This document shows positions 26,798-54,507 of a DNA stretch of 64,000 nt, one piece after another. The stretch lies in assembly GCF_000215995.1 (NCBI RefSeq), contig NC_015680.1:1-64000 (forward strand). Reading direction: 5' to 3'. Source of the DNA: Pyrococcus yayanosii CH1 (lineage in GTDB: Archaea; Methanobacteriota_B; Thermococci; Thermococcales; Thermococcaceae). How positions within the stretch are numbered: position 1 is the stretch's first letter; the number at the start of each line of letters is the position of its first letter. The translations under genes and the position numbers were made by a program. The notes under the pieces were generated by a model. It was given only the letters and a program-made list of their open reading frames with translations. It was not told the DNA's origin and made no database searches.

Positions 26798-28264
26798 TTA
26801 GAGTGGCTCTTCCAGTATCATTTCCTCCAGGATGTCCTTTATCTTTTTTCCGTGGAATAGCTCAAGTATTCTGATTAATGGTTTTGGGAATGTTGTTGTG
26901 AACACTTCTGATGGTCTGGTAAATGCGGACAATATATCTCCTCCATCACTGTTTCTCCTGACCAGATAGTGAACAAATAGTTCCAGACCCTTGACAATTG
27001 CTAGGGTCTCGAGGGTAGTTTCGTCAATGTACCCAGCTTTAAGCTTTGATTCGGCTTCAAGAACTTCTTTTTCCGTAAGATTGAGCGTCTTCCAGTAGGC
27101 TTCTTTAATTCGTTTCTTTAGCTCTTCGATATTTTTGTCAATTTCGTCCCGCTTTGCCTTCTTTCTTAGCCTTATCCCATTTATTCTTAGTTCGTCCTTT
27201 GAGAACGTCATCTTGAATAGGGGTAGGGGATAGTCTTCGAACAAGTAGGGTAAGAGCTTCGGGGTGAAAGTTAGCTTTTCTGGGCTCGCTCTGAAGAGAA
27301 CCTCTATCTCCTTGTCAAACTTGTGGCAGAAGATGTCTTTATAGTCCTCGAGGGTTATACTTTCTCCTGATGCCAGCTTGGCCTTAATCTTCTCTATGAC
27401 GTGAGGACACTCAACGAACGCTTCGAATCCTAGTTTTCTATGGAATTTAAGGATTGTTTCTGGCGGGAATTCTTGGACAACCCTTACTGGATACTCAAAT
27501 ACGACGTGGTCAATGTCGAGGGTGTTGACTTCACAGCCAAATTTTAGGAACACTTCATCGTTTTCTTTGAAAATGCCTGCATATGTGTAGAAGAAGGCTT
27601 CGGGTGTCTTAAAGTCGCTAGTTATGTTCTTTTCGAACAAGAGATCCACGATTTCTTCTGGGATATTCTCTTTGGAGGCATGGGTTTTCACAAGATGCTT
27701 TAGGAAGTGGTGGATATGCTTGAGATCGGAGGGGTTTATTTGTTCCTCGTGTTCGTAAATTATTACGAATTTTCTCCCTTTTTCGTCCTCATTGAATGTT
27801 CTCCTTTCTTTTATTTTCTCTAGTCTGTTCAGGGCATTTTTAATTGTTTCATATGCTCTTTGAGTTATAATGCCATCTTTTTTCAGAGTTTCGATGAGAT
27901 CCTGAGTTGCTGTAATCAGGAGTTTTCTTAGAATTGCGGAGGGGGATGTCTCATATTTAAGTGCTAGGGCTTGGAGTTTTATCCACGAGGGAAATGATAT
28001 TCGGAGGGGTACCGTCTTAGGTACGAGCTTTTTCTCAAGTTCTTTGAGGTAATCTTTTTTCGCTGCCTCGAGAAGCTCTTTCGCTTCTGCGAACATTCCT
28101 TTTTTCGCGAGTTCTGCGCTGATCTCTTTGACTTTTTCCTTTTCAATGAATTTTGCCTTTTTCTCTTTAAAATCATAGTAGGGAACTTTTTCGGTGAGGG
28201 CTGCCATATATTCTAGGTCTTCCATTTTCTTGTAATTTAATGATGTTATGTTTATGTATTTCAT
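26798..28264 (-). CDS. Unknown protein with ribbon-helix-helix-like segment, divergent from the McrBC-like genes
   Basis: This 488-residue protein is not recognised. Residues 82-125 (VPLRISFPSWIKLQALALKY, then ETSPSAILRKLLITATQDL) look like a ribbon-helix-helix DNA-binding unit: one strand and two helices. A Lys/Glu-rich coiled-coil-like region precedes it. The long C-terminal part (160-488) shows no known catalytic motif; CPHVIEKIKAKL and FCHKFDKE contain Cys/His. ATG 28264 follows GGTGAG 5 nt upstream, and a TATA-like TTTAAATAC lies at 28296-28304. It shares a 97-nt divergent promoter region with the nuclease/McrB operon, so it may regulate or assist it. Confidence 0.6.
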   Translation of the reverse strand: MKYINITSLNYKKMEDLEYMAALTEKVPYYDFKEKKAKFIEKEKVKEISAELAKKGMFAEAKELLEAAKKDYLKELEKKLVPKTVPLRISFPSWIKLQALALKYETSPSAILRKLLITATQDLIETLKKDGIITQRAYETIKNALNRLEKIKERRTFNEDEKGRKFVIIYEHEEQINPSDLKHIHHFLKHLVKTHASKENIPEEIVDLLFEKNITSDFKTPEAFFYTYAGIFKENDEVFLKFGCEVNTLDIDHVVFEYPVRVVQEFPPETILKFHRKLGFEAFVECPHVIEKIKAKLASGESITLEDYKDIFCHKFDKEIEVLFRASPEKLTFTPKLLPYLFEDYPLPLFKMTFSKDELRINGIRLRKKAKRDEIDKNIEELKKRIKEAYWKTLNLTEKEVLEAESKLKAGYIDETTLETLAIVKGLELFVHYLVRRNSDGGDILSAFTRPSEVFTTTFPKPLIRILELFHGKKIKDILEEMILEEPL

Positions 28265-28361
28265 CTGGCTCACCGGTGCGTAATTTAAGAGTAAAGTATT
28301 TAAAGCTTTGCTGGAAATTGATTGTTGGGATCGGCGAATTCTACGGGAAGAGGGGACGTAT

Positions 28362-29993
28362 ATGGAGGTCCCAATAAACGGTGAAGATGGGTACTGGCTA
28401 GTTGGGGAGGATTTGATAACTTATGAAGGACGGCTTTACCTTTTTGAGTGGGCTGAGTATTGGGTTGTGGGAGAAAGACCGTTCATAGTCAAGGCTGGAG
28501 GGGAGGAGGTTGTATCAAGGAAGATTAAAGAAAACGCGTATGTTGCGCAGTTTTCGTTTAGGAATTATGTTGGGAGAGCTCGCGTTGAGGTGATTGAAGA
28601 GAAGGGGAGGAAGATTTTTAGAGATGTCGAGGTGCTTTCGCGTAAGATACTCCAAATATACGGCATAAAAAAGGATGAAGAGGACATAAAAGCCATTATA
28701 GAGGTTCATAGAAGATTTTACGAGACCATTGTTAACGATATAATCAAGATTTCATCCTTGTTGCCATTTTCTGTCAGAGCTCCTACTGGATTTGGAGTTG
28801 TTGAATCGGGGGAGCCTATGAGCGAGCTTTTTGCATATCATTATCTGCGTTCGAATAAGGAGAGGATTCTTGAGGCTTTTGAGACGATGCTGAGGCACAT
28901 CAAGAGGAAGCTTGTTGTCGAGGAGGATTGGCTTGGGCTTGAAGATGTGAGTGAGGTAACATCAGAGACTTTCTTTTCCATCGTTCAATACCCAGAACAT
29001 CTGGTTTCAGTGGGGGAGGGGGTTTTATTGTCCGAGTACCTTAGGGGGCACGTTCCTATGAGGGTTCTTAGTTTTAGGAAATATGAGAGCGTTGATACAC
29101 CGGAAAATCGTTTTGTCAAGTATTTTCTCAACCTACTTGTGGAGTGGAGTGAGCGTGTCATTGGGGTCTTTGGGGATAGAGCTGAGGTCAATGCTATTGA
29201 GGAACTCTTGAGAGAGTTTGAATTCATAAGGAGCAATGGAGTTTGGGAAGAGATTGGTGAGATGAAGTTCTTTCCTTACACTTCACAGGCGCTTTTGAAG
29301 GGCGTTGGCTACCGCGACCTGCTTGAGCTTTACAGGGAGTTCACGGCGTATTCGCCTTTCTTCGAGGAGCTGCAGGGGGCGATAGACAATAAGGATATAG
29401 CGAAACTTTACGAGTACTGGGCCTTCTTTAGGCTGGTCGAGGAGCTTGGAGAAATTCTCGGAAGTAAAGAGCTCAAAATCGTAATTACTCCGGGGGGCGA
29501 GCTACCCGAAAGCGGAGACGTTTATGCGGAGTTTGATAATGGTTGGAGGCTTTATTACAATAAGGAGCTAGTTCCAAAAAGGTGGAGCTACTCTGTAACC
29601 ATGAGGCCAGACTTTTCGCTTTTTGATGGGGATCCAGATAGAGCGGGAACTAGACTCATTGGAGTCTTCGATGCGAAGTTCAAGCTTGATGTCGTTGATG
29701 AGCCCAAAGAAATGGAAAGCTTTGATGAAGAAGTCGAAGCTTTGGAGAGAGAGTGGAATTATTGGACATGGGCAAAGCTGGAGGATATATACAAGATGCA
29801 CACATATAGGGATGCATTGGGGTGCAGGTTTGCGGTGGTGGTTTATCCCGGAGATGTGAGTGTGTTTTTCAAAACGAGGGGAAGGAAGCTCACTGATTTC
29901 GATTTAGCAACTCTAATCCTGCTTGACGACTTTGAGGGAGTCGGGTATCTAAAACTTCGGCCTGAGGTGGTAGAAAATGATGGTTTCGGATAG
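28362..29993 (+). CDS. DUF2357/McrC-like protein with PD-(D/E)xK nuclease domain
   Basis: This 543-residue protein is of the COG1700 type, the predicted nuclease partner of McrB-like ATPases. The N-terminal half is the DUF2357-like region (YVAQFSFRNYVGRARVEV; VLSFRKYESVDTPENRFVKYFL). The C-terminal third has TMRPDFSLFDGD and LIGVFDAKFKLD, matching the D...D/E-x-K nuclease core. ATG 28362 has AGGGGA 6 nt upstream; TTG 28308 would add 18 residues and lacks an SD. Its end overlaps the McrB-like gene by 17 nt. Lower GC than the metabolic genes suggests acquisition. Confidence 0.82.
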   Translation: MEVPINGEDGYWLVGEDLITYEGRLYLFEWAEYWVVGERPFIVKAGGEEVVSRKIKENAYVAQFSFRNYVGRARVEVIEEKGRKIFRDVEVLSRKILQIYGIKKDEEDIKAIIEVHRRFYETIVNDIIKISSLLPFSVRAPTGFGVVESGEPMSELFAYHYLRSNKERILEAFETMLRHIKRKLVVEEDWLGLEDVSEVTSETFFSIVQYPEHLVSVGEGVLLSEYLRGHVPMRVLSFRKYESVDTPENRFVKYFLNLLVEWSERVIGVFGDRAEVNAIEELLREFEFIRSNGVWEEIGEMKFFPYTSQALLKGVGYRDLLELYREFTAYSPFFEELQGAIDNKDIAKLYEYWAFFRLVEELGEILGSKELKIVITPGGELPESGDVYAEFDNGWRLYYNKELVPKRWSYSVTMRPDFSLFDGDPDRAGTRLIGVFDAKFKLDVVDEPKEMESFDEEVEALEREWNYWTWAKLEDIYKMHTYRDALGCRFAVVVYPGDVSVFFKTRGRKLTDFDLATLILLDDFEGVGYLKLRPEVVENDGFG

Positions 29994-31911
29994 TGGGATA
30001 CTTGAGCTAGCGAACATAATTCAAAGCTTAAAAGAGAAGTACAAGGACGAATGGAAAAAGTATGAAAAAGAGGCCCTAAGTAAATTCGAGGAATTGTCCA
30101 AATATATCTTCAAAGATAATCCTCCGATCGAAGAGATAATGAAACTAATAAATGGCTTACCTCCAAAAATCAGAGCTATGCTCTACTTTATGCATGCATA
30201 CAAAAAGGAAGACATAACCGAAAAATTCAAACGCATGTTCTCAGATCAAAAAGATCAAAAATTCAGAAAAGTCCTTAAAGATGTAGAAGATAAGAAGGAT
30301 ATAAAGTCCCTAGACTTGAAAGAGTTAAAGGAGAATATCAGAGAGATAGATATCTCGGATGTTGGACTGTCAATAATAAGTACTTGGTTAACTGTTGTCA
30401 ATCCATACTTGTTCATTCCAGTTCATAAAGGAGTAATTTCGGATAAATTTAATTCTCTTTTAGAAAGGTTGTTTGGATTTAAATTGGTATGGGGGAGGGG
30501 AGGATGGAAGGATTACGTGAACAACTACTTAAAATTCGTTCAGATAGTAAATAAAGTTAAGAACGAACTAAATGTTGAGACAACGCTTGAATTGGCATTT
30601 TATTTGAGCAAATTTTCCACGGAAGAGCTAGGAGTTATGTCTAGCAAAAATATCTCGTCTCAGGAGTTTACATTACATAATTATCTCATCTTAAGGGGCT
30701 ACCTTTATCCATCTCATCTAGTTGCCCAGTTCTATGTTGCCCTTAAGACCAAGGGCTTTGTAATCCTCTCGGGTCTCACGGGGGCAGGGAAGACAAAAAT
30801 AGTTCAGGAGCTCGCAGAACTTCTTAATTCGAGTGGAGAAAACTTCCTCTTCCTATCTGTTCGCCCGGATTGGAGGGATTCAAAGGCTCTCCTAGGCTAT
30901 TATAACCCCCTAACTGGCAGGTATCATCGAACAAAGCTCCTTGACTTTATTCTCAAAGCCAAAGAGGACTACGAGCGCAATGGAAGAAATGCAGTGCCCT
31001 ACTTCATTCTTCTCGACGAGATGAATCTTGCTCACGTTGAGTACTACTTTGCGGACTTCCTCAGCGTCCTTGAGAGTGGGAGGGATGAGGGTGGATTCAC
31101 GAGGGAGGGTATTAAGCTTCATGACGTTGACGAGGTTGAGACCTTCGATGGAATCCCCAAAGAGCTCCACCTTCCACCAAACCTCTATGTCATCGGGACG
31201 GTGAACATGGACGAAACAACTTATGCCTTTAGTCCGAAAGTTCTCGACAGGGCATTTACAATTGAGTTCCACGATGTCAAGCTTGAAGATTACCCGCCAA
31301 GGAAAATCGAATTATCGCGGAAAGAAATTGAAGAGTTGAGGAGTGCTATCCTAAAAGACCTCAGGAGGGGCGGGAAGTTCCTCGCTTGGACAAAGGAGGA
31401 GACTAATGAGGCCGTCAGAGAATTAAGAGAGGGATACGAGGGGTTGTGGAATGCGTTGAGGAAGCTCAATGAGGTTCTTGAACCATACGATCTGCACTTC
31501 GGCTACCGCGTGATCGACGAGATAGCCCTCTTCTTCAGGAGTGCCAGGGAGAGTCAGGAGCTGGGCATTGTTAAATTTGGGGACGATGACGAAATATTTG
31601 ATCTCGCTCTCCTAATGAAAGTCCTTCCAAAGTTCCATGGGAACAGGAAGAAGCTTGAAGGACCTCTAAAAGAAGTTCTGAAGCTTTGCATGAAAGAAAA
31701 TGAACAAATAATCGTAAAGTTCAGGAAAAATGGCGAGGAAGAGGTAGTAAAATTGCCGGATGAAATTGACAGGCTCGATGGCAATGTCATTGTTACAATG
31801 ATCACCAACTGGAGCGAATATGAGAAGCATTTCCGCTTCAAGCACACGGCTAAAAAAGTTCTGCGCATGCTTCGCCAGCTCTACGAGATAGGCTTCGCAA
31901 GCTTTAGTTGA
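29977..31911 (+). CDS. McrB-like AAA+ GTPase, type IV restriction
   Basis: This 644-residue motor subunit probably drives the nuclease encoded just upstream. The N-terminal 260 residues are Lys/Glu-rich with a globular part (GLSIISTWLTVVNPYLFIPVHKGV) and presumably recognise modified or foreign DNA. Walker A is LSGLTGAGKTKIVQELAE. Walker B is YFILLDEMNLAHVEYYF. The McrB-type GTVNMDETTYAFSPKVLDRAFTIEF completes the GTPase site. ATG 29977 has GAGGTGG at 29964-29970. The nuclease-first order is opposite to E. coli mcrBC. Confidence 0.87.
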   Translation: MMVSDSGILELANIIQSLKEKYKDEWKKYEKEALSKFEELSKYIFKDNPPIEEIMKLINGLPPKIRAMLYFMHAYKKEDITEKFKRMFSDQKDQKFRKVLKDVEDKKDIKSLDLKELKENIREIDISDVGLSIISTWLTVVNPYLFIPVHKGVISDKFNSLLERLFGFKLVWGRGGWKDYVNNYLKFVQIVNKVKNELNVETTLELAFYLSKFSTEELGVMSSKNISSQEFTLHNYLILRGYLYPSHLVAQFYVALKTKGFVILSGLTGAGKTKIVQELAELLNSSGENFLFLSVRPDWRDSKALLGYYNPLTGRYHRTKLLDFILKAKEDYERNGRNAVPYFILLDEMNLAHVEYYFADFLSVLESGRDEGGFTREGIKLHDVDEVETFDGIPKELHLPPNLYVIGTVNMDETTYAFSPKVLDRAFTIEFHDVKLEDYPPRKIELSRKEIEELRSAILKDLRRGGKFLAWTKEETNEAVRELREGYEGLWNALRKLNEVLEPYDLHFGYRVIDEIALFFRSARESQELGIVKFGDDDEIFDLALLMKVLPKFHGNRKKLEGPLKEVLKLCMKENEQIIVKFRKNGEEEVVKLPDEIDRLDGNVIVTMITNWSEYEKHFRFKHTAKKVLRMLRQLYEIGFASFS

Positions 31912-31964: not shown

Positions 31965-32423
31965 AGTGTTTTTATTCCCCAATCATCTTCAAAATTTCAT
32001 ATTATGGCGAGAAAACTAACATTTTTGGATACTATCTGCTTTCGATGGTTTTCATTTTCGGTTTACCATTTTAGTGGTAATTTCTTGCCAGATGCGTTCA
32101 TTTGACAGTGGAGGTAGCTTCCGCCCGCTCTGGCGGTTAGAGGAGCAAACAATTGAGTTTGAAGGGTCTAAGAGATTAGTCAATTCCCTATTTTTGATTT
32201 AAATTGCGAGTTCGAGCTTATTTTTGGCCATTTGGTTTTCGATTTCCTAAAATCCAAAATCAAGCATTCTATCAGGATTATTAGTGAAATTTAGAACTAT
32301 GCAAGCTTTTTCATTTTCAGGCCAGATTTATAAATGAAGTGCAGTGCTACCGGTTCCAAGAAAAAACTTTAAATACCAGCTCCGAGATATCATTACTTGA
32401 AGAACAAAGGGAATACGCCAAGG
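31965..32423 (+). promoter_or_regulatory. Leader region of CRISPR array 1
   Basis: This is about 460 nt of A/T-rich sequence without a supported gene, ending at the first repeat. Two TATA-like elements near the array, TTATAAAT at 32328-32335 and CTTTAAATA at 32367-32375, could drive pre-crRNA rightward. Leader polarity is supported because the degenerate repeats are at the other end of the array. Confidence 0.6.
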
Positions 32424-34078
32424 GTTTCCGTAGAACGTAATCGTGTGGAAAGAATTTGTCAATACTCCATGTCATAGCCCTCACCACCGTGTTTCCGTAG
32501 AACGTAATCGTGTGGAAAGTGTAACTATTGAAGAATTCAACGAAGCTATTAATGAAGTTTCCGTAGAACGTAATCGTGTGGAAAGTTCTCTTCGCCTCTT
32601 CCCACAACCCCCATCCCATTAATGTTTCCGTAGAACGTAATCGTGTGGAAAGGTGGATATGTGGGAGGAGGATGGTGCCCTTATCGTGTTTCCGTAGAAC
32701 GTAATCGTGTGGAAAGAGATTGCACCAACAGGTTATCGCATTACTACAGGTGGTTTCCGTAGAACGTAATCGTGTGGAAAGTTCATGGTCATCACCCTAA
32801 TAAATAACAGCGTAACCCTCCCGTTTCCGTAGAACGTAATCGTGTGGAAAGGCTGACTTTCTTGTTGTAGCAGTTGCTGAAGAGGTCGCGTTTCCGTAGA
32901 ACGTAATCGTGTGGAAAGTGTACGGTGTCAGCATGGTCTTCGTCATGGTCTTCTTCGGTGTGTTTCCGTAGAACGTAATCGTGTGGAAAGCCACTCCCAC
33001 CACCCCCACGCATAATAAAAGAACAGGAATGTTTCCGTAGAACGTAATCGTGTGGAAAGCTGCTGATGGAAAAACATTCTACATCTGGCCTGAGGGTTTC
33101 CGTAGAACGTAACCGTGTGGAAAGCTCTTCAACAAGCGAATACACTTCAAGGACAAGATCGTCATGTTTCCGTAGAACGTAATCGTGTGGAAAGCGACAT
33201 TCCCCAGCCCTTCGAGGATATCGTCGATTGATGTTTCCGTAGAACGTAATCGTGTGGAAAGGGGCGCGTGCTCGTGCCCTCGCCTGCCAGCCGGCAACTG
33301 GGTTTCCGTAGAACGTAATCGTGTGGAAAGTCCACGCGGCCGCTAGCTTCTTCCTCTCCTCCATCCTCGTTTCCGTAGAACGTAATCGTGTGGAAAGTCT
33401 CAAGCACATCTGCTTCTAGCAAATAGTCTGGAAAGTGTTTCCGTAGAACGTAATCGTGTGGAAAGCTTCATAAAGCAGTACTGGAGCCCAGGGGCATTCT
33501 CGTTTCCGTAGAACGTAATCGTGTGGAAAGGTGTTTTTATCCATAAATCTGTCCCAAGGTCTACGTCAGTTTCCGTAGAACGTAATCGTGTGGAAAGTGG
33601 AGCTCCGGAGGGAGGGGTTCCGTGTGGAGCCCCTCCCGGTTTCCGTAGAACGTAATCGTGTGGAAAGTAACCTGGGCAAGCTTTGTGCTGTCGTTCATAC
33701 ACACCGTTTCCGTAGAACGTAATCGTGTGGAAAGAGTTCCTCCCGACCTTGCAGAGGGAAAAGGGATTCTATGTTTCCGTAGAACGTAATCGTGTGGAAA
33801 GCCTCCCGGTGAGTTCTACACTGTACCTTAGGGAGATGATTTCGTTTCCGTAGAACGTAATCGTGTGGAAAGATTTCAACGCCCGCATTTGTACCTGGCG
33901 AACCTTGACGTTTCCGTAGAACGTAATCGTGTGGAAAGTTGCATAACGAAGAATCCTCTCGACTTCGTCTGGGAGAGCATATGTTTCCGTAGAACGTAAT
34001 CGTGTGGAAACTGATAGAGCTCTTTTAGTTGCCTCTGGATCTCTCTGAAGTTTCCGTAGAACGTAGTCGTGTGGAAAG
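32424..34078 (+). CRISPR. CRISPR array 1: 25 repeats of 29 nt, 24 spacers
   Basis: The repeat begins GTTTCCGTAGAACG and ends TAATCGTGTGGAAAG. I placed 25 copies, starting at 32424, 32491, 32557, 32624 and so on to 33983 and 34050. The 24 spacers are 35-44 nt. Nearly all copies are identical. Repeat 11 (33096) has C for T, repeat 24 (33983) ends AAAC, and repeat 25 (34050) has G for A, so decay sits at the right end and the leader at the left. Transcription is therefore on the plus strand. No cas gene occurs in the window. Confidence 0.97.
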
Positions 34079-34104
34079 GAACTTAATGCGCCATTAGCTT
34101 TAGA

Positions 34105-34133
34105 GTTTCCGCTGAGGGAGATTGTGTGCGGCT
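34105..34133 (+). repeat. Possible decayed 26th repeat of CRISPR array 1
   Basis: After a 26-nt gap from the last clear repeat, the sequence starts GTTTCCG and retains TTGTGTG near its end. It matches the repeat at about 17 of 29 positions. It fits an old trailer-end repeat with a shortened spacer, but could be chance similarity. Confidence 0.3.
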
Positions 34134-34735
34134 TTGTGTTTTTGGAACGGGATTTTGTGGGGTTCGAAAAGCCAGGACTTTGCGGTATTGGCTACGTGGC
34201 CCGAGTGGTGGTCTCTGCTTATGGTAAACCCTCCTTCCAAAACTCTGCTCTTGTCAAGCTCACTATCGAGGTAGCCAACCTAACACCGAAAGATGTTTCT
34301 ATAAATTTCGGTGGATATACATCAGGGGTGCTGTCCTTCAGGAAAGAGGGAAGCATCGAGGTGTATGCTGTGGAGATATTCTTTCCACACAGCGCCCTGT
34401 CGAGGTTCTAAGCGTTTCCTACTCGGAGTCCATAAAGGATTCTCAGGTGCTCTCTCAGGTGGATGGAGGGTCGTGAAGTTTGGTGTCGTCAATGTTGAAA
34501 AAAATCGAGGATGTCAAAACGGTTCTCCTTGCTGAGCCTTTAAATAGGACGATACCGCCGGGGGGAAGAGGGTACTCGTTGTCCACATCTCCATTGATGG
34601 TAGGATAAAGTGGCCTCTACTTCAAGCCCAAGATACTTCTGCAAATTGGAGACAAAGTTATGGCTGTTCTGGGCCAGTCATTTGTCTTCGTGAGGGTGCC
34701 CGAGCCTTGCGGAGAACCATAAGGATTTTTCAGGT
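34124..34735 (+). pseudogene. Decayed coding remnant(s), probably of an exported protein
   Basis: An open frame at 34124-34411 (95 codons) reads plausibly as protein in its second half (LVKLTIEVANLTPKDVSINFGGY), like a beta-rich extracellular domain. At about 34400 coding-like sequence continues in another frame (VEVLSVSYSESIKDSQVLSQ). Further fragments in shifted frames follow (VLVVHISIDGRIKWPLL near 34570-34620; KPKILLQIGDKVMAVLGQS near 34625-34685). Stops and frame changes interrupt all of them. I see a disrupted gene or gene family member, not a working ORF; the parent is unknown. Confidence 0.4.
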
Positions 34736-34872
34736 CAGTTAGTCGTTTCCTCGTTTTGGTGTTTTTAACCATTAGTTTACGAAGTATTTTGGGGTGTGTA
34801 TTACATCCAAATTAAGAAAAGCTTCCTGGGGTGAGAGAGTGAACTCCCGTAGGTTTGTGTTGCTGACCTCCT

Positions 34873-34903
34873 CCCCGCCCTGAAGGGCGAGGGTTCCAAC
34901 GAA
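34873..34903 (-). repeat. Right-end hairpin of the IS605-type element
   Basis: CGCCCTGAAGGGCG forms a short perfect stem within a GC-rich flank (minus strand AACCCTCGCCCTTCAGGGCG) immediately after the tnpB stop. Such subterminal hairpins are recognised by TnpA and end the guide RNA of TnpB. Confidence 0.55.
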
Positions 34904-36121
34904 TTAACCCCTCGCCATTGGCGGGAAGGTTTGAGGGGGTCTCATCAGGGGACCCACTAAAACGGGTTCTTCGAACCCCTCGGGGAGGGTCTTCCCCCCG
35001 TTACCCCTCCCTTGGGCGTAAAGACCACCCAAGTTCGGGGTTATGGTTCTCGCCACCTTCTTTAAAATGTTGAACGCTCCAACCAAGTCCGCGTTAAAGA
35101 CAAGCCCCGTCGCGGGACACGCAAAAAGACCACGAACAAAGCGCGCCCCATCGTGGGGCTTCCCGCAAACGGGGCAGGTTTTAGAAGTGAAAGCCTCATT
35201 CACAACCACAACAGAGATACCATACTCCTCCGCAACTTCCTTCAAGCGTTTGATGACGTAATTAAACCGCCACACGTGGGAGAGGAGGAAATTCCGCTTT
35301 CTGCCCTTATCAGAGTTCCTGGCAATGCCCTTCGGATAACCAACGACAATCCTTGAGACCCCGAGTTCGTAAAGCCTTCTAACCGTTTGCCTGACTGCAG
35401 TGTTAATGTAGTGTTTAGCCTGAAGTTTGGCTTTTTGATGCATTCTCTTAAGTTTTCTGCTCATTTTGACCCCGGACTTGTTGAGTTTTGACTGGTAATT
35501 GGCAATTTTTCTCCTCCAGTAGAAATCAATGCTCTTCAAGGGTCTTCCATTGACCAGAAAGCTTTCTCCATTCTCCACGTAGACCGCCATTAAGTTGTTC
35601 ACTCCAAGGTCAATTCCGGCGGAAAGGTTACCTAATGGTTCTTTTGGGATTTTAACCCATTCCCCGCCCTCAAGTTTCTCCTCAACGGTAAAGCTCACGT
35701 GAGCGTACCACTTCCGCTTTACGGGGTCGAAGGTTATCTCCAATCTCCCTTGTTTCCCATTCAAGTGTATCCTGCCCTTAAACTGGACTTCGAGTTTTTT
35801 GAACTTTCCAAGGCCTTTGAGGATTAGTTTGTTGCCTTCAATCCGATACTGGTCGTTCCTGAGGATTATTATCGGTTTTCTCTTCCCGTCTTCCTTGAGG
35901 TAGTTTGGTGGTTTTGGCTTGAGCCAGGAGGGTAGCTCTCCATTCCTCTTTTTCCGAAGGAGGGAGAAGAATGAACGCCACGCTTCAGCATTCTTCCGGC
36001 AGATTTGTTGGACTGTGGCAGAACCGATTTCCCTCTTAAACTCCTCATAAACAGTCTTCTCTGTTGAATTGAAGTCTACGATTTGCTCTTGGAAGTATTG
36101 TTGTCGTCTGAGATAGTTCAC
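34904..36121 (-). pseudogene. tnpB: TnpB (IS605 OrfB) RNA-guided nuclease, apparently without its start codon
   Basis: The 405-codon frame from GTG 36121 carries the RuvC-like core: AGIDLGVNNLMAV (Asp), VVVNEAFTSKTCPVCGKPHD (Glu and zinc-finger Cys) and GLVFNADLVGAFNILKK (Asp). The same frame stays open upstream to 36223 and encodes the usual beginning KRSVTVKLQPSKEQEKTLFELADLGAKVWNR, but has no ATG, GTG or TTG before 36121; the expected start is GTT. The native start thus seems mutated, and initiation at 36121 would lose about 30 N-terminal residues. Catalytic residues look intact. Whether any product is made is unknown. Confidence 0.8.
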
Positions 36122-36201
36122 TCTGTTCCAGACTTTTGCTCCTAAGTCTGCTAACTCGAAAAGAGTTTTTTCTTGCTCCTTTGAGGGCTGGAGTTTAACC
36201 G

Positions 36202-36531
36202 TTACGCTCCTCTTCGTTTTAACTCACGCTCCCATTGGGTTTCAACGTAGTGCTTAACAATCTCGTCCGTCACGTAGCCGACTGTGGCGACAAAATAGGA
36301 GCGTGACCACAAGCGACCGTTGGTCGTCTTTGTTCTTAATTTAGGGAACTCTTGGAGGAGTTTTCTTGCTGTCTTGCCTTTCAGGTGGTTGATTATTTTG
36401 GTTGGTGAAAGGTTTGGCTTTGCCCTGAGGAAGACGTGCACGTGGTCGGGCATTACTTCGATGGCAATGACTTCGCAATCTATTTCCTCGGCGTACTCTT
36501 TGAGCATTTCACTTGAAAAGGAAATGCACAA
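36202..36531 (-). pseudogene. tnpA: TnpA (IS200/Y1 transposase), N-terminally truncated
   Basis: About 109 codons remain. The HUH motif is present (EVMPDHVHVFLRAKP), followed by LKGKTARKLLQEFPKL, LWSRSYFVATVGYVTDEIV and KHYVETQ, which holds a candidate catalytic Tyr. The usual N-terminal strand and TKYR region, about 25-30 residues, are absent: upstream in frame a TGA (36540-36538) occurs at once and only TTG 36531 could initiate. The 3' end overlaps the upstream tnpB frame, as in intact elements. I judge it non-functional. Confidence 0.8.
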
Positions 36532-36686
36532 AGGAATTCAAGAGAAAAAGGAGGTCCGCCCTTCCCACAAGGCCCGAGCATTGGTCCAAATTGTTGTCCG
36601 TTAATCGTCGAAAATTCCTTTAACTTTCACCGAAAGCCTTTTAATAGGGCCCCTTCTAGGGTGAATGACCGTCAGAGGTGATGCTC

Positions 36687-37739
36687 ATGGGGAAGCTTAT
36701 GAAGCCAATCAGGGATGTTGGAATCGTCGGATACGGTGCCTACATTCCCATGTACCGCATACGGAACGAAGAAATTGGCAGAGTCTGGGGAGTTAATAGC
36801 TTCCCGATAGAGGAGAAGGCCGTTCCGGGCCTTGATGAGGACACAGTCACAATTGGTATCGAGGCCGCAAGAAACGCCCTGAAGAGGGCTCGCATTGAGC
36901 CGAGGCTCATAAGGGCCATCTGGTTCGGCACCGAGTCTAAGCCCTATGCCGTTAAGCCCTCGGCAACTATAATCGCGGAGGCCATCGGGGCGACGCCAGA
37001 TTTAGAGGCCGCTGATTTTGAGTTCGCTTGCAAGGCCGGAACCGAGGCCCTTCAGGCGGCGATAGGATTCGTGGGCTCCGGCATGGTTGACTATGCAATG
37101 GCCATAGGAGCGGACACCGCCCAGGGAAGACCTGGTGACCACCTCGAGTTCACCGCCGGTGCCGGTGGAGCGGCCTTCATCGTAGGCAAGAAGAGCTCCG
37201 AGACCCTCGCATATTTCGAGGGAAGCTACTCCTACGTTACCGACACGCCCGACTTCTGGAGAAGGCAGCACGAGCATTACCCAAGGCACGGTAACAGGTT
37301 CACGGGCGAACCAGCATACTTCCACCACATAATAAACGCGGCCAAGGGCCTCATGGAGGAGCTAGGCTTAACCGTTGACGACTTCGACTACGCCGTCTTC
37401 CACCAGCCCAACGTTAAGTTCCCGCTCACCGTCGCCAAAATCCTCGGCATTCCGAGGGAGAAGGTTCTGCCCGGCCTCCTCACCGGGATAATCGGAAACA
37501 CCTACAGCGGTGCGACGATGGTCGGTATCTCAGCTGTTTTGGATGTTGCCAAGCCGGGCGACAGAATCCTCTGGGTTTCCTTCGGCTCCGGTGCGGGAAG
37601 CGACGCCTTCAGCCTCGTCGTCCAAGACGCTATAGAGGAGAAACGCGATCTAGCTCCGAAAGTTCAGGACTACGTGAACAGGAAGAAGTACATCGACTAC
37701 GCCCTCTACGCGAAGGCAAGGAGGAAGTACATTCTCTGA
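36687..37739 (+). CDS. Hydroxymethylglutaryl-CoA synthase (archaeal)
   Basis: This 350-residue enzyme condenses acetoacetyl-CoA with acetyl-CoA to HMG-CoA, entering the mevalonate route to archaeal lipids. [18 protein letters not shown] holds the catalytic Cys. [19 protein letters not shown] holds the catalytic His. [14 protein letters not shown] and [12 protein letters not shown] complete the thiolase-fold pocket. ATG 36687 has GAGGTGA 5 nt upstream; GTG 36678 and ATG 36681 overlap the SD. It leads an operon with thiolase and a DUF35 protein, which in methanogens form one channelling complex. Confidence 0.94.
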
Positions 37740-41221: not shown

Positions 41222-42207
41222 CTTTCAATTCTCTTTGAGTCTTATTGGAACCCTCAACAACAAGCACAAACTATTCGTCGTCTACAATTCTTTCAATTCT
41301 CTTTGAGTCTTATTGGAACGCGCAAATAGTTCTCCCCACAGAGCTCGAGCTCTCCACGTCTTTCAATTCTCTTTGAGTCTTATTGGAACGAGGGCGGGGC
41401 TGGCGTGGAGGATGAACGCGGTCGCTTTCAATTCTCTTTGAGTCTTATTGGAACAAAGGAAATAGTTAGTTTCTTTACGGAAGAACCAGAAGCTTTCAAT
41501 TCTCTTTGAGTCTTATTGGAACTTTGGTACGTAAGCGCGATGACGGCAAGTACGAGCTGATAGACTTTCAATTCTCTTTGAGTCTTATTGGAACGGTGAT
41601 ACTAGAGGACGAGGAGGAGTTATTCGAGCTTCCTTTCAATTCTCTTTGAGTCTTATTGGAACAAATGTAAAAATGAGGGGGCTTCAGATCCACCCCACGC
41701 TTTCAATTCTCTTTGAGTCTTATTGGAACTTCAACGTTTCTGGTTGTTATCTCGTCTGGAGCAGCCCTTTCAATTCTCTTTGAGTCTTATTGGAACACTC
41801 TCACACGGACACACACAAAATCCTGGTTACATCTTTCAATTCTCTTTGAGTCTTATTGGAACTCCAGCCTGTTGGCCTGGGTGAAGGAGGGGAAGAAGGC
41901 TTTCAATTCTCTTTGAGTCTTATTGGAACCGTTGTCCCAATAGAGCACTACAACGAGAAGAAGAAGCCTTTCAATTCTCTTTGAGTCTTATTGGAACAGC
42001 ATCCATACGGAAGTTGCGTTAAGCTGTACTATGACTTTCAATTCTCTTTGAGTCTTATTGGAACCCGGCCGGGCCCAAATTTCCTTCAGCTCAGCCGTCC
42101 GGCTTTTGCCTTTCAATTCTCTTTGAGTCTTATTGGAACTATCCATTGCCCCCCACCTTTTTTATGATAATTCTATCCTTTCAATTCTCTTTGAGTCTTA
42201 TTGGAAC
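41222..42207 (-). CRISPR. CRISPR array 2: 15 repeats of 30 nt, 14 spacers
   Basis: On the minus strand the repeat begins GTTCCAATAAGACTC and ends AAAGAGAATTGAAAG, the Pyrococcus/Thermococcus type whose crRNAs carry an AUUGAAAG 5' tag. Copies start (plus coordinates) at 41222, 41290, 41360, 41425, 41493, 41565, 41633, 41700, 41767, 41833, 41900, 41968, 42035, 42110 and 42178. Spacers are 35-45 nt. All copies appear identical. By comparison with known arrays, transcription is leftward with the leader at 42208 and beyond. Confidence 0.97.
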
Positions 42208-42704
42208 AGGTGGGTTTTTTGCTTGTTTTCTTCTATGCTTTTCTTGGGAGTCTTGGATTTTATAAATCTTTTGGCGAGGGGGTCTTAACGAGGCCTTGAG
42301 AGGGCTTGAAATGCAGTCTTGAGGAGTCAAAACTTTTGGTAAAAAGCTTCTAAAAAACCCCATAATTTCAATGATCGAAAGTGATCATAAGGCTTCCAAC
42401 GGTTTCTCAACCAATTAAATCAAAAATCAAGACTTTTTATGTTAGAGATTTGGAAAAAATACGATTCTAGTAGGGTTTGGGGTGAAAGGAGTGCCCTCCT
42501 TGCCCCACTCCAAATTCCGAAAAAAATTTCGTTACAAAACACGCGAGAAAACACAACAAAATGCCATATACTAACAAAAAATTACTAAAGACTTCCAAAC
42601 CCCCCACAACCCACCATTTACCCAAACAAACCACATCCTAACCTTTTCGAGAAAAATAGCACCCAAAAATAAGTATCTAAAAAATTTCGGCTCAATGATG
42701 ATCT
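42208..42704 (-). promoter_or_regulatory. Leader region of CRISPR array 2
   Basis: About 500 nt of A/T-rich sequence with homopolymeric A and T runs and no supported gene. On the minus strand GATTTATAAAATCC (about 42255-42268) is a good TATA box some 50 nt before the first repeat. The far half also contains the 3' flank of the ChlI/D gene. Confidence 0.6.
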
Positions 42705-44618
42705 TCATATCCTATAGACTTTAGCGTTTGCGACTTTTTCTAAAATTTGGACATACGAAATACCTGGATGTATCCCTCTTCCTCTTGTGTCGTAGACGTT
42801 AAGCTCTATTTCTTTCCTCTTCAGGGCCCTTGCCAGCTCCGTTATTTCATCTTTAATTCGCTTCCCAAAGAGCGACACGTTGGCCTTTCCGTCGGTTATC
42901 AAGAACGCCCTGACTTTCAGGGACTTGTCTTTTCTCCTCTCACGTTCAGCAAGCAGAAGAAGATTATAGAGGGCAGAGCTTAAAGGCGTTCTCCCTCCAG
43001 TTGGAACGCTCTCTATTTTCTCAAGCACTTCCCAGTAGTTCTTCGTAGGTGGAACGAATATTTCCGCCTGATTACCTTTCGCAACTATCAAGGCCATCTT
43101 TGACCGCTTTGTATATCCGTTCTCAACCAGCTTTTCCGCTATTCCCTTTGCTATGCTGATTCTCTTCTGCACTGCCATGCTTCCGCTCGAATCCAGGAGC
43201 AGGACCCAGAGCGTTGGTGCCTTTGCTTTCCTGATCCTGACGCGGATGTCGTTTAGATCGAGTTTTATCGGCGGCTTTTTGCCGTTCAACACTGCCCAAA
43301 TCAAGGAGTTGTAGAAATCAACGTCTTTAAGTTCGCCGTTGATAGGTGGAAGGTATGAAATCGGAATGCCTCTGGGGTAGTTTATCACCGTGATGCTGAC
43401 GTCCCTTGAGGAACGGTTGCTGGTGAATTCGTCTCCATCAAAGTTTTTGCTCTCTATCCTTGGGATTTTAGCTTCGCTTGAGCGAAAATTCTGTTCTAAA
43501 TTTCCAATCCCCTGACTTCGAGTGCTTTCACTTTTTTCTTCCTTCTTGTGCTCATGCTTATGGTTATGTTCGTGGTCGTGATCGTGCTCCTTATCCTCTT
43601 TAGGCTTTGGGGGCCTCATCTGCGGTGGCTTTTGGAAGGGCTTGTCCCTCAAGCGGTGCGGTAAAGCTAATTCCATAGCCTTCTCCAAGTCTTCCAGTGA
43701 GACCCTTCTCCTTCCGTTTAGGGCGGCTATTGCTTTAGCCGTCTTTATCGTGGCTATCTCAGCCCTGTTGGTTTTGATTCCCAAATTAATTACAGTTTCG
43801 GCTAAAAGTTTCAGCAGATCGTCGCTTATCTCGACCTTCGGCAGAATCTCCCTTGCCTTAACGATCCTCTCCGTGAGCTTCTTCTCTTCGCTCTCAAACT
43901 TCTTATAGAAGCTTATCGGGTCTTCATGGAACTCTTCAACTCTCCTAACTATCTCTATCCTCTCCTCCGGGTTCATTGGTGCTGAAACTTCAACGCATAA
44001 GCCGAATCTGTCGAGTATCTGTGGCCTCAGCTCGCCCTCCTCGGGGTTCATGCTTCCCACCAGGATGAAGCGGGCGGGGTGCCTGAAAGAGATTCCTTCC
44101 CTCTCTATCGTGTTCCACCCCATTGCCGCGGCATCTAAAAGTGAGTCGGCTATGTAATCATCGAGCAGGTTCACCTCGTCTATGTAGAGCACGTTTCTGT
44201 TCGCCTCTGCTAAAATTCCTGGTTGTAGGGCTTTTTTGCCCTCCTTCAAAAATCTCTCAACATCAACGGTCCCAACGAGTCTATCTATTGTAACGCTAAG
44301 AGGCAAATCAACAACGCGCATCTTCCTCTTTGTCACTGGTAGTTCCTCGCCTTTCTCATAGCGCTCGTAGCAGGAGTCGCACATCTCTAGGGGATTCCTT
44401 GGATTGCAGTTGAAGGGACAGCCATCAACGACTTCAATTTCTGGCAAAACGTTGGCTAAAGCCCTAACCAAGGTTGATTTTCCTGTCCCCTTATCTCCTT
44501 TAAGCAGGACACCACCGATTAGGGGATTAACGGCTACACAGAGTAGGGCTAATTTAGCCTTTTCCTGCCCGACTATTGCGGAGAATGGAAATACTAAGCG
44601 TTTTTCACGAGGCTCCAT
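42705..44618 (-). CDS. Fused ChlI-ChlD-type AAA/VWA chelatase subunit
   Basis: This 637-residue protein combines both accessory subunits of Mg/Co-chelatase. The AAA part has Walker [17 protein letters not shown], Walker [24 protein letters not shown] and [23 protein letters not shown], plus [14 protein letters not shown] linker at about 350-365 is extremely His/Asp-rich ([17 protein letters not shown]). The C-terminal VWA domain has the MIDAS DSSGSM and [10 protein letters not shown]. It should power metal insertion by the CobN-like subunit encoded upstream, whose end it overlaps by 25 nt. SD GGAGGTGG precedes ATG 44618. Confidence 0.88.
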
Positions 44619-47600
44619 ATTTTATCCACCTCCTCAATTTTTTCACTCCAGTGTTCATCATCCTCAGCCGTGTAGATTTCGATAGTTCCACCCTGAACTT
44701 CTCCTTCCCCAAGGCTCTCCTCCAAAATCCCCTCAATCTCGGAATAGACCTCCATGAGCCTTTCAATCAATTCATCGCTCGTCTTCCACAGGCCGCGCTC
44801 ATAGGCTTCAATCAAACGCCTTGCAATCTCCTCAAGAGCGTAGGGGTTGTGCTCCTCGAACCATCTCCTCATCTCCTCGTCCAAAACATACCTCCGCGCT
44901 ATCTCGTCAAAAACCCAATCTTCAACGAGCTTCGTCGTTGTCTCCCAGCCGTACAAGTGAAGAATCTTCTTTGAGAACTCGGCGGCACCGCGATAGCCGT
45001 GCTTCTTCATATCCTCAATCCACCTATCATTGAGCAGCTTCGCCCTCACAACGCGCTCAAGCTCAACTTTCATGTCAACTATTTTGGCATCGCTTACATC
45101 CCTCGTGTCCGTCTGAACCACTTCAACGTTCTTGCCCGTTAAGGCATCAACAGCCGCCTTAAATCCACCATGATAAGCGAAGTAGCAACAGCAGTTCGTC
45201 GGGTCGTGCTCGTCGCTTATGTGGTTTCTGTTAACGATGTCAACCTCCTTTAAGTTCAAAACCAATGATTCGTGAGCCTCAACGCCAAAGGCATCTTTTC
45301 CATAAGCATAGCCGCTCCACTGAACCCAAACTTTTGCTAAATCCTCATCACTTTTCCAGGCAGAGGATTCAACAGCTAAATTCACTCCAGCCCCGTAGGT
45401 ACCGGGTGGAGCCGAGAAAACCCTGAACCTCGCAAACCTTTGGGCTTCTTCAAAGCTCTTTCCGAGCTCGACCAGCTTTTTAATGTGCTCAATGTAGTGT
45501 TTTTTGATGTAGTTCATCTCTAAAGGCTCATCCAGCATAACGACCTTTTCTATGGCCTCATCAATCAGGTAGATGTAGTTTGGCAATGTGTCCCTCACGA
45601 CTCCACTTATTCTGACCAGAACATCAATCCTTGGCCTTCCGAGCTCCTCCAAGGGAATTACCTCAAGGCCGGCAACCGTATCTCCCTTCCAGACCGGCCT
45701 AACCCCAATCAGGTAGAGGATTTGAGCTATCTGCTCTCCATCCGCCTTATAACCGTCTATGCTCCAGAGAACCTGCCCAACGCTTTCTGGATATTTCCCG
45801 TGCTTCTCTTTGTAAGCTTTCAAAAGCTTTTCAGCGGTTTCAACCCCTATCTGCCATGCCGCCTTGGTTGGTAGGGTTCTCGGGTCGACAGCATAGAAGT
45901 TCCTCCCCGTCGGCAAAATCTCAAACTTTCCTCTTGTTATCGCTCCCGACGGGCCGGGTTCGACGTATTTTCCGGCCAGTCCGTTGAGAAAACCGTCATA
46001 TTCTTTTTCACATTCAACTATTCTTCTGGCAACCTCAAGAGCTTTCCTGAACGCTTCTTCAAGCTTTTCTTTCTCCTTAACTTTGAATCCAAACTTTTCA
46101 ATCTCTTCCTCAATAACTTCAAAGCTCTCTCCCTTAAGCAGACGCTCTAAGCTCTTAACGGCTATCCTGTGGAAAATCTCAAGCAGTTCTCTGTTCGTGA
46201 AGCCGTTTGTAGTTCCAAGAGGGTTCTTTCTTATCTCATCGTAGTTAAAGCCCAATGCCTCAGCCACAACACGCCTGATTGAAGGAGAGTAGTAGGAGTC
46301 ATATGCCATCGCCGTGGCAACGTATTCTGCCAGCCTCTCAGGCTCTTCTGGTGGATGTCCAAAGATGTGAAGGCCGAGATTTATTTGGGAACCTCTCATC
46401 AGCTCGACGTAGCGATGTATTTCCTCTATCGTCTGCTCTTCGTCTTCCGGATTGGCTATTCTCAGCTTATTTTCCTTAGCTTTTTCTAAAATCTGCTCGT
46501 AAATCTTCCTTCTCCTTGCCTCATCGCCGAGACTCTTTGCCTTTGCATACTGGGTTAGGAGGGAATCCAAATCATCCAGAACTTCTGCCATCCCCATTGG
46601 AGGATACATGTGGTCTATAAGCGTTGCGTAGCCTCTCCTCTTGGCTATGACGCCTTCCATTGGGTTGGAGACGGCGTAAACGTAGAGGTGAGGAACATCA
46701 TCTAAGCTAGCCTCGGGAACGCATGAAGGAGAAAGCCCAACGCCTTTCCCGGGCCTGAACTCTAAGTAGCCGTGGGTTCCGAAGTGTATCATTACATCAG
46801 CCCCAAATTTGCGCGTTATCCACCTGTACACCGCCCACCACTGGTGCGGCGGGACTATCGTTGGATCGTGCAGAATTCTGCAAACTTTTCCGTCGCACCT
46901 TGCTCCAGCACAGCCGAACTTTGGCTGAGGGGTTATGAAGACGTTCCCAAACCTTATTCCCGGAACTACAAACTTCCCATCATAGACCATTCCAACCAGC
47001 GCTTTGTCCACCTTTCCAGCCAGAACATCCTCTGGCTTTCCCCAGTCCTTAATGATTCTCTCCCTCAAATCTTCCGGAAGCTCGTTGAGCCACTCCAGAT
47101 ACTCCTCCAGGCTTACGAAATCAATTGCTCCGCCGCTTTTGACTATCTCTTCAACGCTCGTCCATCTGAACTCGCTTATCGCTTTTCTCTTCAAAATCAG
47201 CTTTATCAGCTTTTCCCCCGTCTTTGGAATGTTCTCGCCGACGTAATAACCTTCCTCCTTAAGCTTGTGCAAGAGCCTTACGACGCTCTCGGGAACATCC
47301 AAGCCGAGACCCACACCAACATTCGCCTCAAGCCCCTTACATGGGGGGTTTATTAGGACTATAGCAATTTTAACCTCGCTTTTTGGCTTCTTCCTGAGCT
47401 CGACCCACTTCTTTACCCTTTTGGCTAAATATTTCATGTGCTCTTCGTAAGGTTCTCCAACCTTGTAACCTTCAATGTTTCTGGTCCCAGCTATGAAAAT
47501 TGGCTCAATTGCCCCCGCAACTTCTGGGATTATCACCCCATAAACCTGGGTCATATAGTCAACGCCTTGCTTGCTCTTCTCCCACTCTTCAAGGGACTGG

Positions 47601-48352
47601 TAGTAAGACCTTATCGGGGCAAAAACTGGAACGTTGAGCTTTTGCAGATTCTTTAAATCAACCGTACCGAAGGAAATTAAGCTAACCAAAGCTTCTATAA
47701 TCGGCTTTCCATCCTTCATGAAGAACTCTTCAACAGCTTCGCTCTTCTCCCTTCCAAGTCCTGTCGTCGGGTCTTTTCCGTATGTGAAAACAGGAATCAC
47801 ACCGAAGCCTTCTTCTTCAAGGGCTTTGATGAGCTCCCTAATCAGTTTAAATTCCTTATAAAGCCAGGCGCTCCTCCAGAATAGGACTCCAACAAGCGGT
47901 CTTTTCGTGTAAACCTCCAGATATCTGTCCAAGCTTTCAAATGTCCCAAGATCTGGGTGGTAAATCCCATCCATGGGAACTTCTTCCGGTTCTTCATATT
48001 CAATTGCCTTCCCAGTTAAGCTTGCTAAAAATCTGACCAGATTTCTGAGATTTTTCTCGCCCCCAAGGACATAATATGTCTTCGCCTTGATTATAACTTC
48101 TTCTGGAACGTTGGTCAGGCTTTCAAGCCCGGCACAGGCAATGACTTTAGCTTTGGTTTCTTTAATTTTTTCGACGACTGTTTCAGGAAGCTCGTGGGCA
48201 TATATGAAGATAACCTCGGCTTTCTCTACCTTTTCCAGCTCCCTCTCACAGTTCTGGTCAGTGAGCACAATGCCCTCTATTCTTTCTTCTCTGAGGATTT
48301 CCTGAAGCAAAGGCAAAGCCCTTGCCCCATAACCTATGATCAAACATATCAC
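44594..48352 (-). CDS. cobN: CobN-type metallochelatase large subunit
   Basis: This 1252-residue catalytic subunit is of the CobN/ChlH family, which inserts Co2+ or Mg2+ into a tetrapyrrole. Family blocks: [73 protein letters not shown]-like helices and [22 protein letters not shown]. Length matches CobN. GTG 48352 forms a GTGA overlap with the stop of the Gate-domain gene and has GGGGGTGG upstream. The true tetrapyrrole and metal are unknown; this order is not known to make corrinoids de novo. Confidence 0.92.
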
Positions 48353-49293
48353 AACACCACCCCCATAACGGCGATAACGCACAATATAATCACGCTCCTC
48401 GTTGCCATTGAGATAAGCATGAGCTTTATCCCATCTCCTGGACCATAGAGCCCGACATAATATGGAATCAGCACCCTTAGGAAGGTTATGTTTGCAAAAA
48501 TCGAACCAAGAAGAAGAGCCCTTATTAGAGCTTTTTCGCTTATTAAACCAGCTTTTAAGAGGTTTGCACCGAGGGTATAGGTTGCTATGCTGCCAGCCAT
48601 TGCACTCAATGCGACGCTTAATTCTTCGGGCGAAAAGGGCAGGGATCGTGCAAAGCTCCTCACGAGGTCACTTAGATGATTGAAGAACCCAACCGCTATG
48701 AGCAGAGCCGTTATGTAGGTCACTATGATCATGGTCTTCAGAATTTGGAGTGAAGTTTTCTTTGTTTTTGTCAAAGCATTTCTTAAGGCATCTTTAAAAG
48801 GCTTTTTCTTCCTCATCCGCTTTTGAGAATTGCTGATTTCTCTTGGATTTTTAATCAAAATTTTCCCAGCCACTGCAAAAACAGTTGTCTGGATTAGCCC
48901 TATGAAAACCAAAATTCCAAAGTAGAGCAAGCCAAGCTTTCCGAGTGTAGCCAGGAGAACAGGGATTAGAGAATTCCAGTGCCTAACCATTGCAGGGAAA
49001 GCGTTCATGAGCGAGGCAATGTAGAGCTCCCTCTTTCCAATTTTGCTCTCCCTATAAAAATCCACAAGCATGGCATTGGCTGCCCTCGTGTTCAAAAAAG
49101 CTGTTGCAAAGGCTAATGCACACTCCCCTGGCAGGTTTGAGAGCTTAACGAATGGTTTGCCAATGAAAGATATCTTCTCCACTATGCCCTTCTCGATTAG
49201 AAGCTCAGCTATGAATATCCCAATAAGCAGCCCGGGGACAGAGCGCTTCAGGAAATTGAGTGCAATCGCAACCGAGGTTGTCAGCAGCTCCAC
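48349..49293 (-). CDS. Gate/nucleoside-recognition-domain membrane protein
   Basis: This 314-residue polytopic protein has about eight hydrophobic segments in two similar halves. GECALAFATAFLNTRAANAMLVDFYRE and LSAMAGSIATYTLGANLLKAG look like paired Gate motifs. The middle is a Lys-rich cytoplasmic loop (about 160-180). Related COG3366-type proteins occur near cobalamin and metal genes and may transport metal ions or tetrapyrroles; the function is not established. GTG 49293 follows GAGGTGG. It lies between the ABC ATPase gene (2-nt gap) and cobN (4-nt overlap), so it belongs to the same operon. Confidence 0.72.
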   Translation of the reverse strand: MELLTTSVAIALNFLKRSVPGLLIGIFIAELLIEKGIVEKISFIGKPFVKLSNLPGECALAFATAFLNTRAANAMLVDFYRESKIGKRELYIASLMNAFPAMVRHWNSLIPVLLATLGKLGLLYFGILVFIGLIQTTVFAVAGKILIKNPREISNSQKRMRKKKPFKDALRNALTKTKKTSLQILKTMIIVTYITALLIAVGFFNHLSDLVRSFARSLPFSPEELSVALSAMAGSIATYTLGANLLKAGLISEKALIRALLLGSIFANITFLRVLIPYYVGLYGPGDGIKLMLISMATRSVIILCVIAVMGVVL

Positions 49294-49295
49294 TT

Positions 49296-50066
49296 TCAGA
49301 CCACCTCTGTTCTTGGAAGTATAAGTCTAAATCCGTTGAATTCAAGAATGCATATTGGAACGCCATATACTTCCTCAAGAATTTCCTCTCTTAGAATCTC
49401 ATTTGGCTTCCCTATAGCTCTAATTCTGCCTTCTTTAACAAGGGCAATCCTATCCGAATACAGCGAGGCCAAATTCGGGTCGTGAAGCGTCATAACCGCA
49501 GAGATGCCTTCCTCTTTTGCTAATCTCTTCACAATCCCGAGAACCTTCACCTGGTTTTTAAAATCCAAGTGAGCAGTGGGCTCATCTAAGAGGAGAACCT
49601 TTGGCTCCTGCACAAGGGCCCTCGCTATAAGAACAAGCTGCAGCTGCCCTCCGCTGAGCTGGGTGTAGGGCCTATCCTTAAATCGCTCCATTCCTATGAG
49701 CTTGAGCTTCTCCAGAGCCTTTTGATAGTGCTCCTTCCTTGGGCTCTCAAAAACTCCAAGCTGAGATGCCAATCCCATAACGACCACATCTAAAACCGTG
49801 TAGGGGAAAGGAGGATGATGTGACTGAGGGACATAACCAGCTAACTTGGCTCTTTCCTTTAAAGAGAGCGAGTGAAAGTCTTTACCATTCACAAAGACGC
49901 ACTTTTTCTTTGGCTTCAGCAACCCGTAAATGCTTTTCAGAATCGTTGTTTTCCCACTGCCGTTTGGACCGAGCAGGGTCAAAATCTCACCCTCTCTCAC
50001 CTCAAAGCAGACATCTTCAACGCTAAAATCACCGTAGCTGAATGATAATCCTTTAACTTCAAGCAT
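49296..50066 (-). CDS. ABC transporter ATPase, FecE/BtuD type
   Basis: This 256-residue ATPase drives uptake by the FecCD-like permease encoded upstream. Walker A is LLGPNGSGKTTILKSIYG. PQSHHPPFPYTVLDVVVMGL is a Q-loop segment typical of metal-chelate importers. The signature is QLSGGQLQLVLIARAL, Walker B VLLLDEPTAHLD, and the switch His is in MTLHDPNLA. ATG 50066 with GGTGG upstream overlaps the permease gene by 8 nt. Substrates in the family are iron chelates, heme or cobalamin. Confidence 0.92.
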   Translation of the reverse strand: MLEVKGLSFSYGDFSVEDVCFEVREGEILTLLGPNGSGKTTILKSIYGLLKPKKKCVFVNGKDFHSLSLKERAKLAGYVPQSHHPPFPYTVLDVVVMGLASQLGVFESPRKEHYQKALEKLKLIGMERFKDRPYTQLSGGQLQLVLIARALVQEPKVLLLDEPTAHLDFKNQVKVLGIVKRLAKEEGISAVMTLHDPNLASLYSDRIALVKEGRIRAIGKPNEILREEILEEVYGVPICILEFNGFRLILPRTEVV

Positions 50067-51105: not shown

Positions 51106-51107
51106 GA

Positions 51108-53231: not shown

Positions 53232-53401
53232 TGTGTCCACCACCTTGTGCCACTGAATTCCAATTTAGTAATACGGACCTGGATAGAATTGGGAGATTTT
53301 TAACACTTTTTAAAACCAAATATTCTCAACTTATGGTTTCTGAACTTCTTAGTAGCCTGACCAACGTCTCAACAAACGAAACAGGCAGGGAGGGAAGTTG
53401 G

Positions 53402-54502: not shown

Positions 54503-54507
54503 GAGCA

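Follow-up and report, generated by a model that had tools for sequence, protein, structure and literature searches.

A McrBC-like gene pair in Pyrococcus yayanosii CH1 stands back to back with a Thermococcales-restricted, probably autoregulated gene that is likely of different origin

Introduction

The described systems closest to the locus reported here are those of the McrBC kind. In E. coli K-12, McrBC is a two-gene unit in which McrC joins DUF2357 to a PD-(D/E)xK nuclease and McrB is an AAA+ protein with an N-terminal specificity region; the gene pair from Pyrococcus yayanosii CH1 analysed below is alike in all of these respects, whereas its gene order is reversed, its signature is NxD and not NxxD, no DUF3578/ADAM domain is recognisable and sequence similarity is marginal. 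McrB proteins with an NxD signature constitute a major McrBC branch, McrB usually lies upstream in McrBC systems, and CoCoNuTs are reported to be nearly absent in archaea (Bell et al. 2024, PMC11090510). With NxD-branch systems, CoCoNuTs included, the P. yayanosii pair shares the NxD motif followed by E and the DUF2357 McrC partner, but it differs from CoCoNuTs in its nuclease-first order and in having no HEPN, TerY or CARF accessory genes beside it.

Two further systems bear comparison. PYG1 module II (PYCH_15160/15170, PMC5126054) is likewise a Type IV pair on a low-GC P. yayanosii island, but it has a different McrC family (PF10117-like), a frameshifted GTPase and no homologue of the 488-residue protein that adjoins the pair studied here. 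Plasmid pTBMP1 of Thermococcus barophilus MP (NC_015471) carries homologues of the 488-residue protein (62%), McrC (50%), McrB (57%) and a transcription factor B (TFB), but there the 488-aa gene and McrBC lie 10 kb apart on the same strand, and the interval holds NYN, HSDR_N, RNase J-like and other genes.

The DNA analysed (the window) comprises bases 1–64000 of the single-contig genome of P. yayanosii CH1 (1,716,818 bp). The original prediction proposed that the McrBC-like pair and the divergent 488-aa gene form a self-regulated, three-part restriction system. Our analysis corrects that idea and replaces it with a testable alternative, which we hold to be moderately probable: an NxD-branch Type IV pair that adjoins an orphaned, NYN-associated gene of mobile-element origin, itself probably autoregulated. 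The McrC→McrB pair and the 488-aa gene would then be two modules of different origin placed back to back.

Results and discussion

The McrC–McrB pair

The McrC-like gene (28362–29993, plus strand) starts at ATG 28362, with an upstream TTG at 28308 also open as an alternative start, and its product matches DUF2357 (PF09823, E 8e-29) and PDDEXK_7 (PF04411, E 6e-13). Its end is overlapped by the McrB-like gene (29977–31911, plus strand), which encodes an AAA+ NTPase with the Walker A motif GLTGAGKT, the NxD-type signature VNMDE and a variable N-terminal region; this GTPase matches AAA_5 and PADLOC PDC-M26A (2e-55), and against the PDB it gave weak matches to the solved McrB structures 6ut3 and 6hz4. 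ORFs and profiles bear out the predicted DUF2357/PD-(D/E)xK protein overlapping a downstream McrB-like GTPase, and the coordinates, strands, lengths and overlaps of the cluster are, per ORFs, as originally described.

Homologues of the McrC-like nuclease were found in 33 of 94 Thermococcales genomes, and gene neighbourhoods were compared across 22 loci (20 fetched Thermococcales loci, pTBMP1 and the window). The original prediction drew attention to the order being the reverse of that of E. coli mcrBC; the reversal is real, but McrC comes first, with a McrB-like gene directly downstream and mostly overlapping, in 22/22 loci, and nuclease-first order was accordingly rejected as a special feature of this cluster, being the norm of the lineage. 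The RPD...DAK catalytic motif of McrC is invariant in these loci, and the N-x-D-E signature (VNMDE/VNIDE) is present in all 22 McrB homologues, the reading frame of which is split in two loci (L064 and L080). Unsplit McrB proteins vary in length from about 586 to 978 aa by their N-terminal region, a variation that would fit exchangeable target recognition.

An AAA+ protein with Walker A/B motifs and an Nx(x)D signature, encoded in one operon with McrC, and a DUF2357 plus PD-(D/E)xK McrC with intact catalytic residues are the marks of a McrBC-like Type IV system. The pair shows both, and is best read, from its sequence, as an ordinary NxD-branch system of that type. Judging from the family, McrB would form a ring whose variable N-terminal region serves target recognition, and this ring would bring in the DUF2357–PD-(D/E)xK nuclease and activate it on foreign nucleic acid in modification-dependent restriction.

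The 488-residue protein and its relatives

The 488-aa gene (26798–28264, minus strand) is divergent from the McrC-like gene across a 97-nt gap (28265–28361), as predicted, and belongs to a Thermococcales family that has not been described before. The protein had no match in Pfam, NCBIfam or PDB. Relatives were detected in 6 of 94 Thermococcales genomes, one of the six being a remnant, and none were found outside the Thermococcales in 115 genomes of the phylum or in GTDB contig scans. A viral origin of the gene was considered and rejected, no relatives occurring in phage records or IMG/VR. The plasmid copy on pTBMP1 and the low GC at the window locus argue for mobility of the gene, and the protein would be mobile-element-borne and restricted to the Thermococcales.

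The protein was originally credited with a ribbon-helix-helix (RHH)-like segment; the candidate segment (about residues 83–129) shows beta-alpha-alpha order in one AF2 model. Full-length AF2 (pLDDT 50) placed a strand at residues 83–90 ahead of helices at 91–103 and 108–129, and AF2 of residues 1–150 (pLDDT 81) placed the same helices after an extended segment. Of these models the full-length one was too poor for structure search, and Foldseek returned no significant match; neither did searches for RHH by PDB sequence, Pfam and NCBIfam. Profile support is weak and near shuffle level: several family members gave weak PHROG CopG/Arc matches (best E 0.02), and when hhalign was used to align the segment with 14 Thermococcales RHH_1 proteins the register was correct but 8/200 column shuffles scored equally high, while the full-length profile did not select residues ~83–129. 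An RHH fold, and with it DNA binding by the 488-aa protein, is plausible but unproven.

At four loci (L016 9346–9573; L017 8863–9129; L018 1368–1604; L010 19664–19930) the divergent neighbour of the 488-aa gene is a conserved gene of about 85 aa, of an unclassified family, which occupies the place that mcrC holds in the window.

The divergent promoter

Alignment of the regions upstream of the 488-aa homologues revealed a conserved block, TTAAATACYTTWCTMTTAAATTAC, ending 15–18 nt before the start codon in 5/6 intact loci, whereas at the sixth homologue the block has diverged and contains a 2-nt gap. In the window this 24-nt element, TTAAATACTTTACTCTTAAATTAC, lies at 28280–28303 on the minus strand, 15–39 nt upstream of the 488-aa gene and within the 97-nt promoter region shared by both directions, and consists of a TATA-like box and a downstream half, TTAAATTAC, which is operator-like by position. 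A TTTAAA palindrome near 28299–28304 could, as far as sequence can suggest, serve both directions.

Eight whole genomes were searched for the element with three mismatches allowed. Five genomes had exactly one copy apiece, invariably at this position before the 488-aa gene, and there was none in the three genomes without an intact 488-aa gene; the reversed-pattern control found no copies, and dinucleotide shuffles of the window gave zero expected copies. Four homologues agreed with the window at 21–23/24 positions, whereas in a matched control the region upstream of McrC in the window agreed with those of 20 McrC homologues at only 13–16/24, the level of unrelated pairs. Part of this conservation reflects general core-promoter function, since the element includes a TATA-like box.

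The remnant of the 488-aa gene in genome G005 (L019 9135–9756) is decayed, with internal stops, and the 24-nt element does not occur in that genome.

Self-regulation of the 488-aa gene is favoured by its having a private element within the promoter that it shares with mcrC. On our best inference the gene is probably autoregulated through the element, the protein most likely binding it at its own core promoter and repressing itself; to this extent the self-regulation envisaged by the original prediction gains support for the 488-aa gene, its function as a regulator being inferred. That the protein also modulates McrBC expression in P. yayanosii is a tentative proposal that we regard as somewhat doubtful. 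It is suggested by the position of the element within the shared divergent promoter and by the McrC promoter of the window, which bears no recognisable resemblance to the promoters of the Thermococcus homologues. If the 488-aa protein does bind the 24-nt element, the locus would offer an example of archaeal defence-island regulation, a poorly studied question.

Thermococcus mcrC promoters (L063–L073, L078) have in common a motif near TAGTAACTTTTTGGTG. The window shows no recognisable copy of it, which suggests a different mcrC promoter in P. yayanosii.

The NYN partner

At all five intact loci elsewhere, a gene for a putative RNase with a NYN (PIN-like) domain lies within two genes of the 488-aa homologue (Pfam E 3e-23 for the pTBMP1 protein), and every strong match to this NYN subfamily in the 94 genomes falls at a 488-aa locus. 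A search of the P. yayanosii genome found no gene of the subfamily, and no NYN remnants were present near the window locus; the usual partner would have been lost, or never acquired, in this species.

Conserved adjacency of a PIN-like RNase and a partner gene, here 5/5, is also a property of VapBC-like modules, and the 488-aa protein could on sequence grounds be paired with the NYN RNase in the manner of an antitoxin, leaving an orphan antitoxin in the window. We consider this unlikely. The exclusive association with NYN matches agrees with it, as do the 488-aa gene-first order in three loci, the promoter-proximal private element and the toleration of an orphan state in P. yayanosii; however, an antitoxin of 488 aa would be of very large size, at G011:C3 and G010 the 85-aa gene stands between the two genes and the pair is divergent, and the RHH is itself unproven.

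Composite defence islands and the TFB neighbour

A McrBC pair lies within 10 kb, in one gene run, at three of the four testable 488-aa loci elsewhere (pTBMP1, G093:C11 and G011:C3), G010 having been left out of the count for its short contig; at the fourth, G011:C6, the 488-aa gene and NYN are present and the 75-kb contig holds no McrBC. Within ~4–10 kb, the three runs contain the NYN gene, an RNase J-like gene, others, and McrBC pairs in which McrC is of the DUF2357 type, the PF10117 type or both. By a rough estimate this proximity exceeds random placement, but it is no proof of joint function because defence genes cluster in islands.

These arrangements raise the alternative that the 488-aa gene is autoregulated and, standing at the head of composite islands of Type IV and RNase genes (NYN, RNase J-like, McrBC), acts as their controller, the intermediate genes being missing in P. 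yayanosii so that the 488-aa gene abuts McrBC directly with control retained. Its position is suggestive: at pTBMP1 and G093:C11 it comes first in a run of genes on one strand with McrBC at the end, and it is divergent from a McrBC-bearing run at G011:C3 and in the window, and has the private element at the head position in all four. Yet G011:C6 keeps the gene and NYN without McrBC, in G007 the 488-aa gene is missing from an RNase J/McrBC island of similar make-up, and defence genes gather in islands regardless; we rate the controller as rather unlikely.

Directly downstream of the 488-aa gene lies the second TFB gene of the genome (25682–26656, minus strand; PF00382), the product of which is 90% identical to P. 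yayanosii TFB1 and groups with it in the tree, on a long branch. The TFB that adjoins the pTBMP1 homologue was separately derived, from a different lineage, and no TFB is nearby at the other 488-aa loci; two separately derived copies beside one family are a curious finding. A fuller version of the controller, in which the plasmid- and island-borne family, autoregulated through a 24-nt core-promoter operator of its own, heads NYN/RNase J-like/McrBC islands, possibly with a dedicated TFB, and directly governs the McrBC promoter of P. yayanosii, seems to us improbable.

Composite islands recur at L010 20001–35948 (pTBMP1), L017, L016, L074 and L076, with NYN, HSDR_N, RNase J-like, DUF7662, class II GATase, GGCT, ADP-ribosylglycohydrolase, GmrSD and the two McrBC types in varying combinations. 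In P. yayanosii, PYG1 (L081, G000:C1:1321000-1340000) contains the central part of the island known from pTBMP1, mostly at 87–92% identity, comprising TPR, ADP-ribosylglycohydrolase, GGCT, GATase and DUF7662 genes and lacking the NYN, RNase J-like and 488-aa genes.

The 488-aa protein as a third component

The same comparisons bear on the proposal that the 488-aa protein is an obligate, structural third component of McrBC-like restriction. Divergent adjacency to McrC in the window and McrBC pairs near three other loci speak for it; but of the 33 genomes with McrC, 30 have no 488-aa gene, the nearby pairs belong to two different McrC types, and the consistent partner of the gene is NYN. Co-occurrence with COG1700/McrB pairs, through which the original prediction was to be checked, does not hold, both genes being found in just three genomes. 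The observation named there as refuting it, homologues lying mostly away from McrB-like genes, was made in part: only three genomes are shared, but McrBC is nearby in 3/4 loci. Of the three-gene, self-regulated system, the McrBC pair stands and self-regulation of the 488-aa gene gains support, whereas a conserved third component does not, and we regard that role as very improbable. The 488-aa gene is probably a neighbour or a regulator and not a third part of the restriction machine.

What takes the place of the three-part system is an archaeal family hitherto without annotation, which has a promoter element present once per genome, a strict NYN-RNase partner and a setting in Type IV-rich islands.

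Genomic setting

GC content is ~38–47% over the McrBC/488-aa cluster against 50–58% to the left, which agrees with the lower GC originally noted. The predicted adjacency to CRISPR was likewise confirmed: an array of 25 repeats (32424–34079, plus strand) begins 512 nt beyond the McrB gene, and we treat it as a neighbour only. Its spacers had no match against the compared loci. Islands PYG3 (41713–55341) and PYG9 (32347–37739) have been published for P. yayanosii CH1 (PMC5126054), and their coordinates match ORF limits in the window. Just past the CRISPR array, at 34904–36121, lies an IS605 OrfB/TnpB-like gene with OrfB_IS605 and Cas12f1-like TNB domains.
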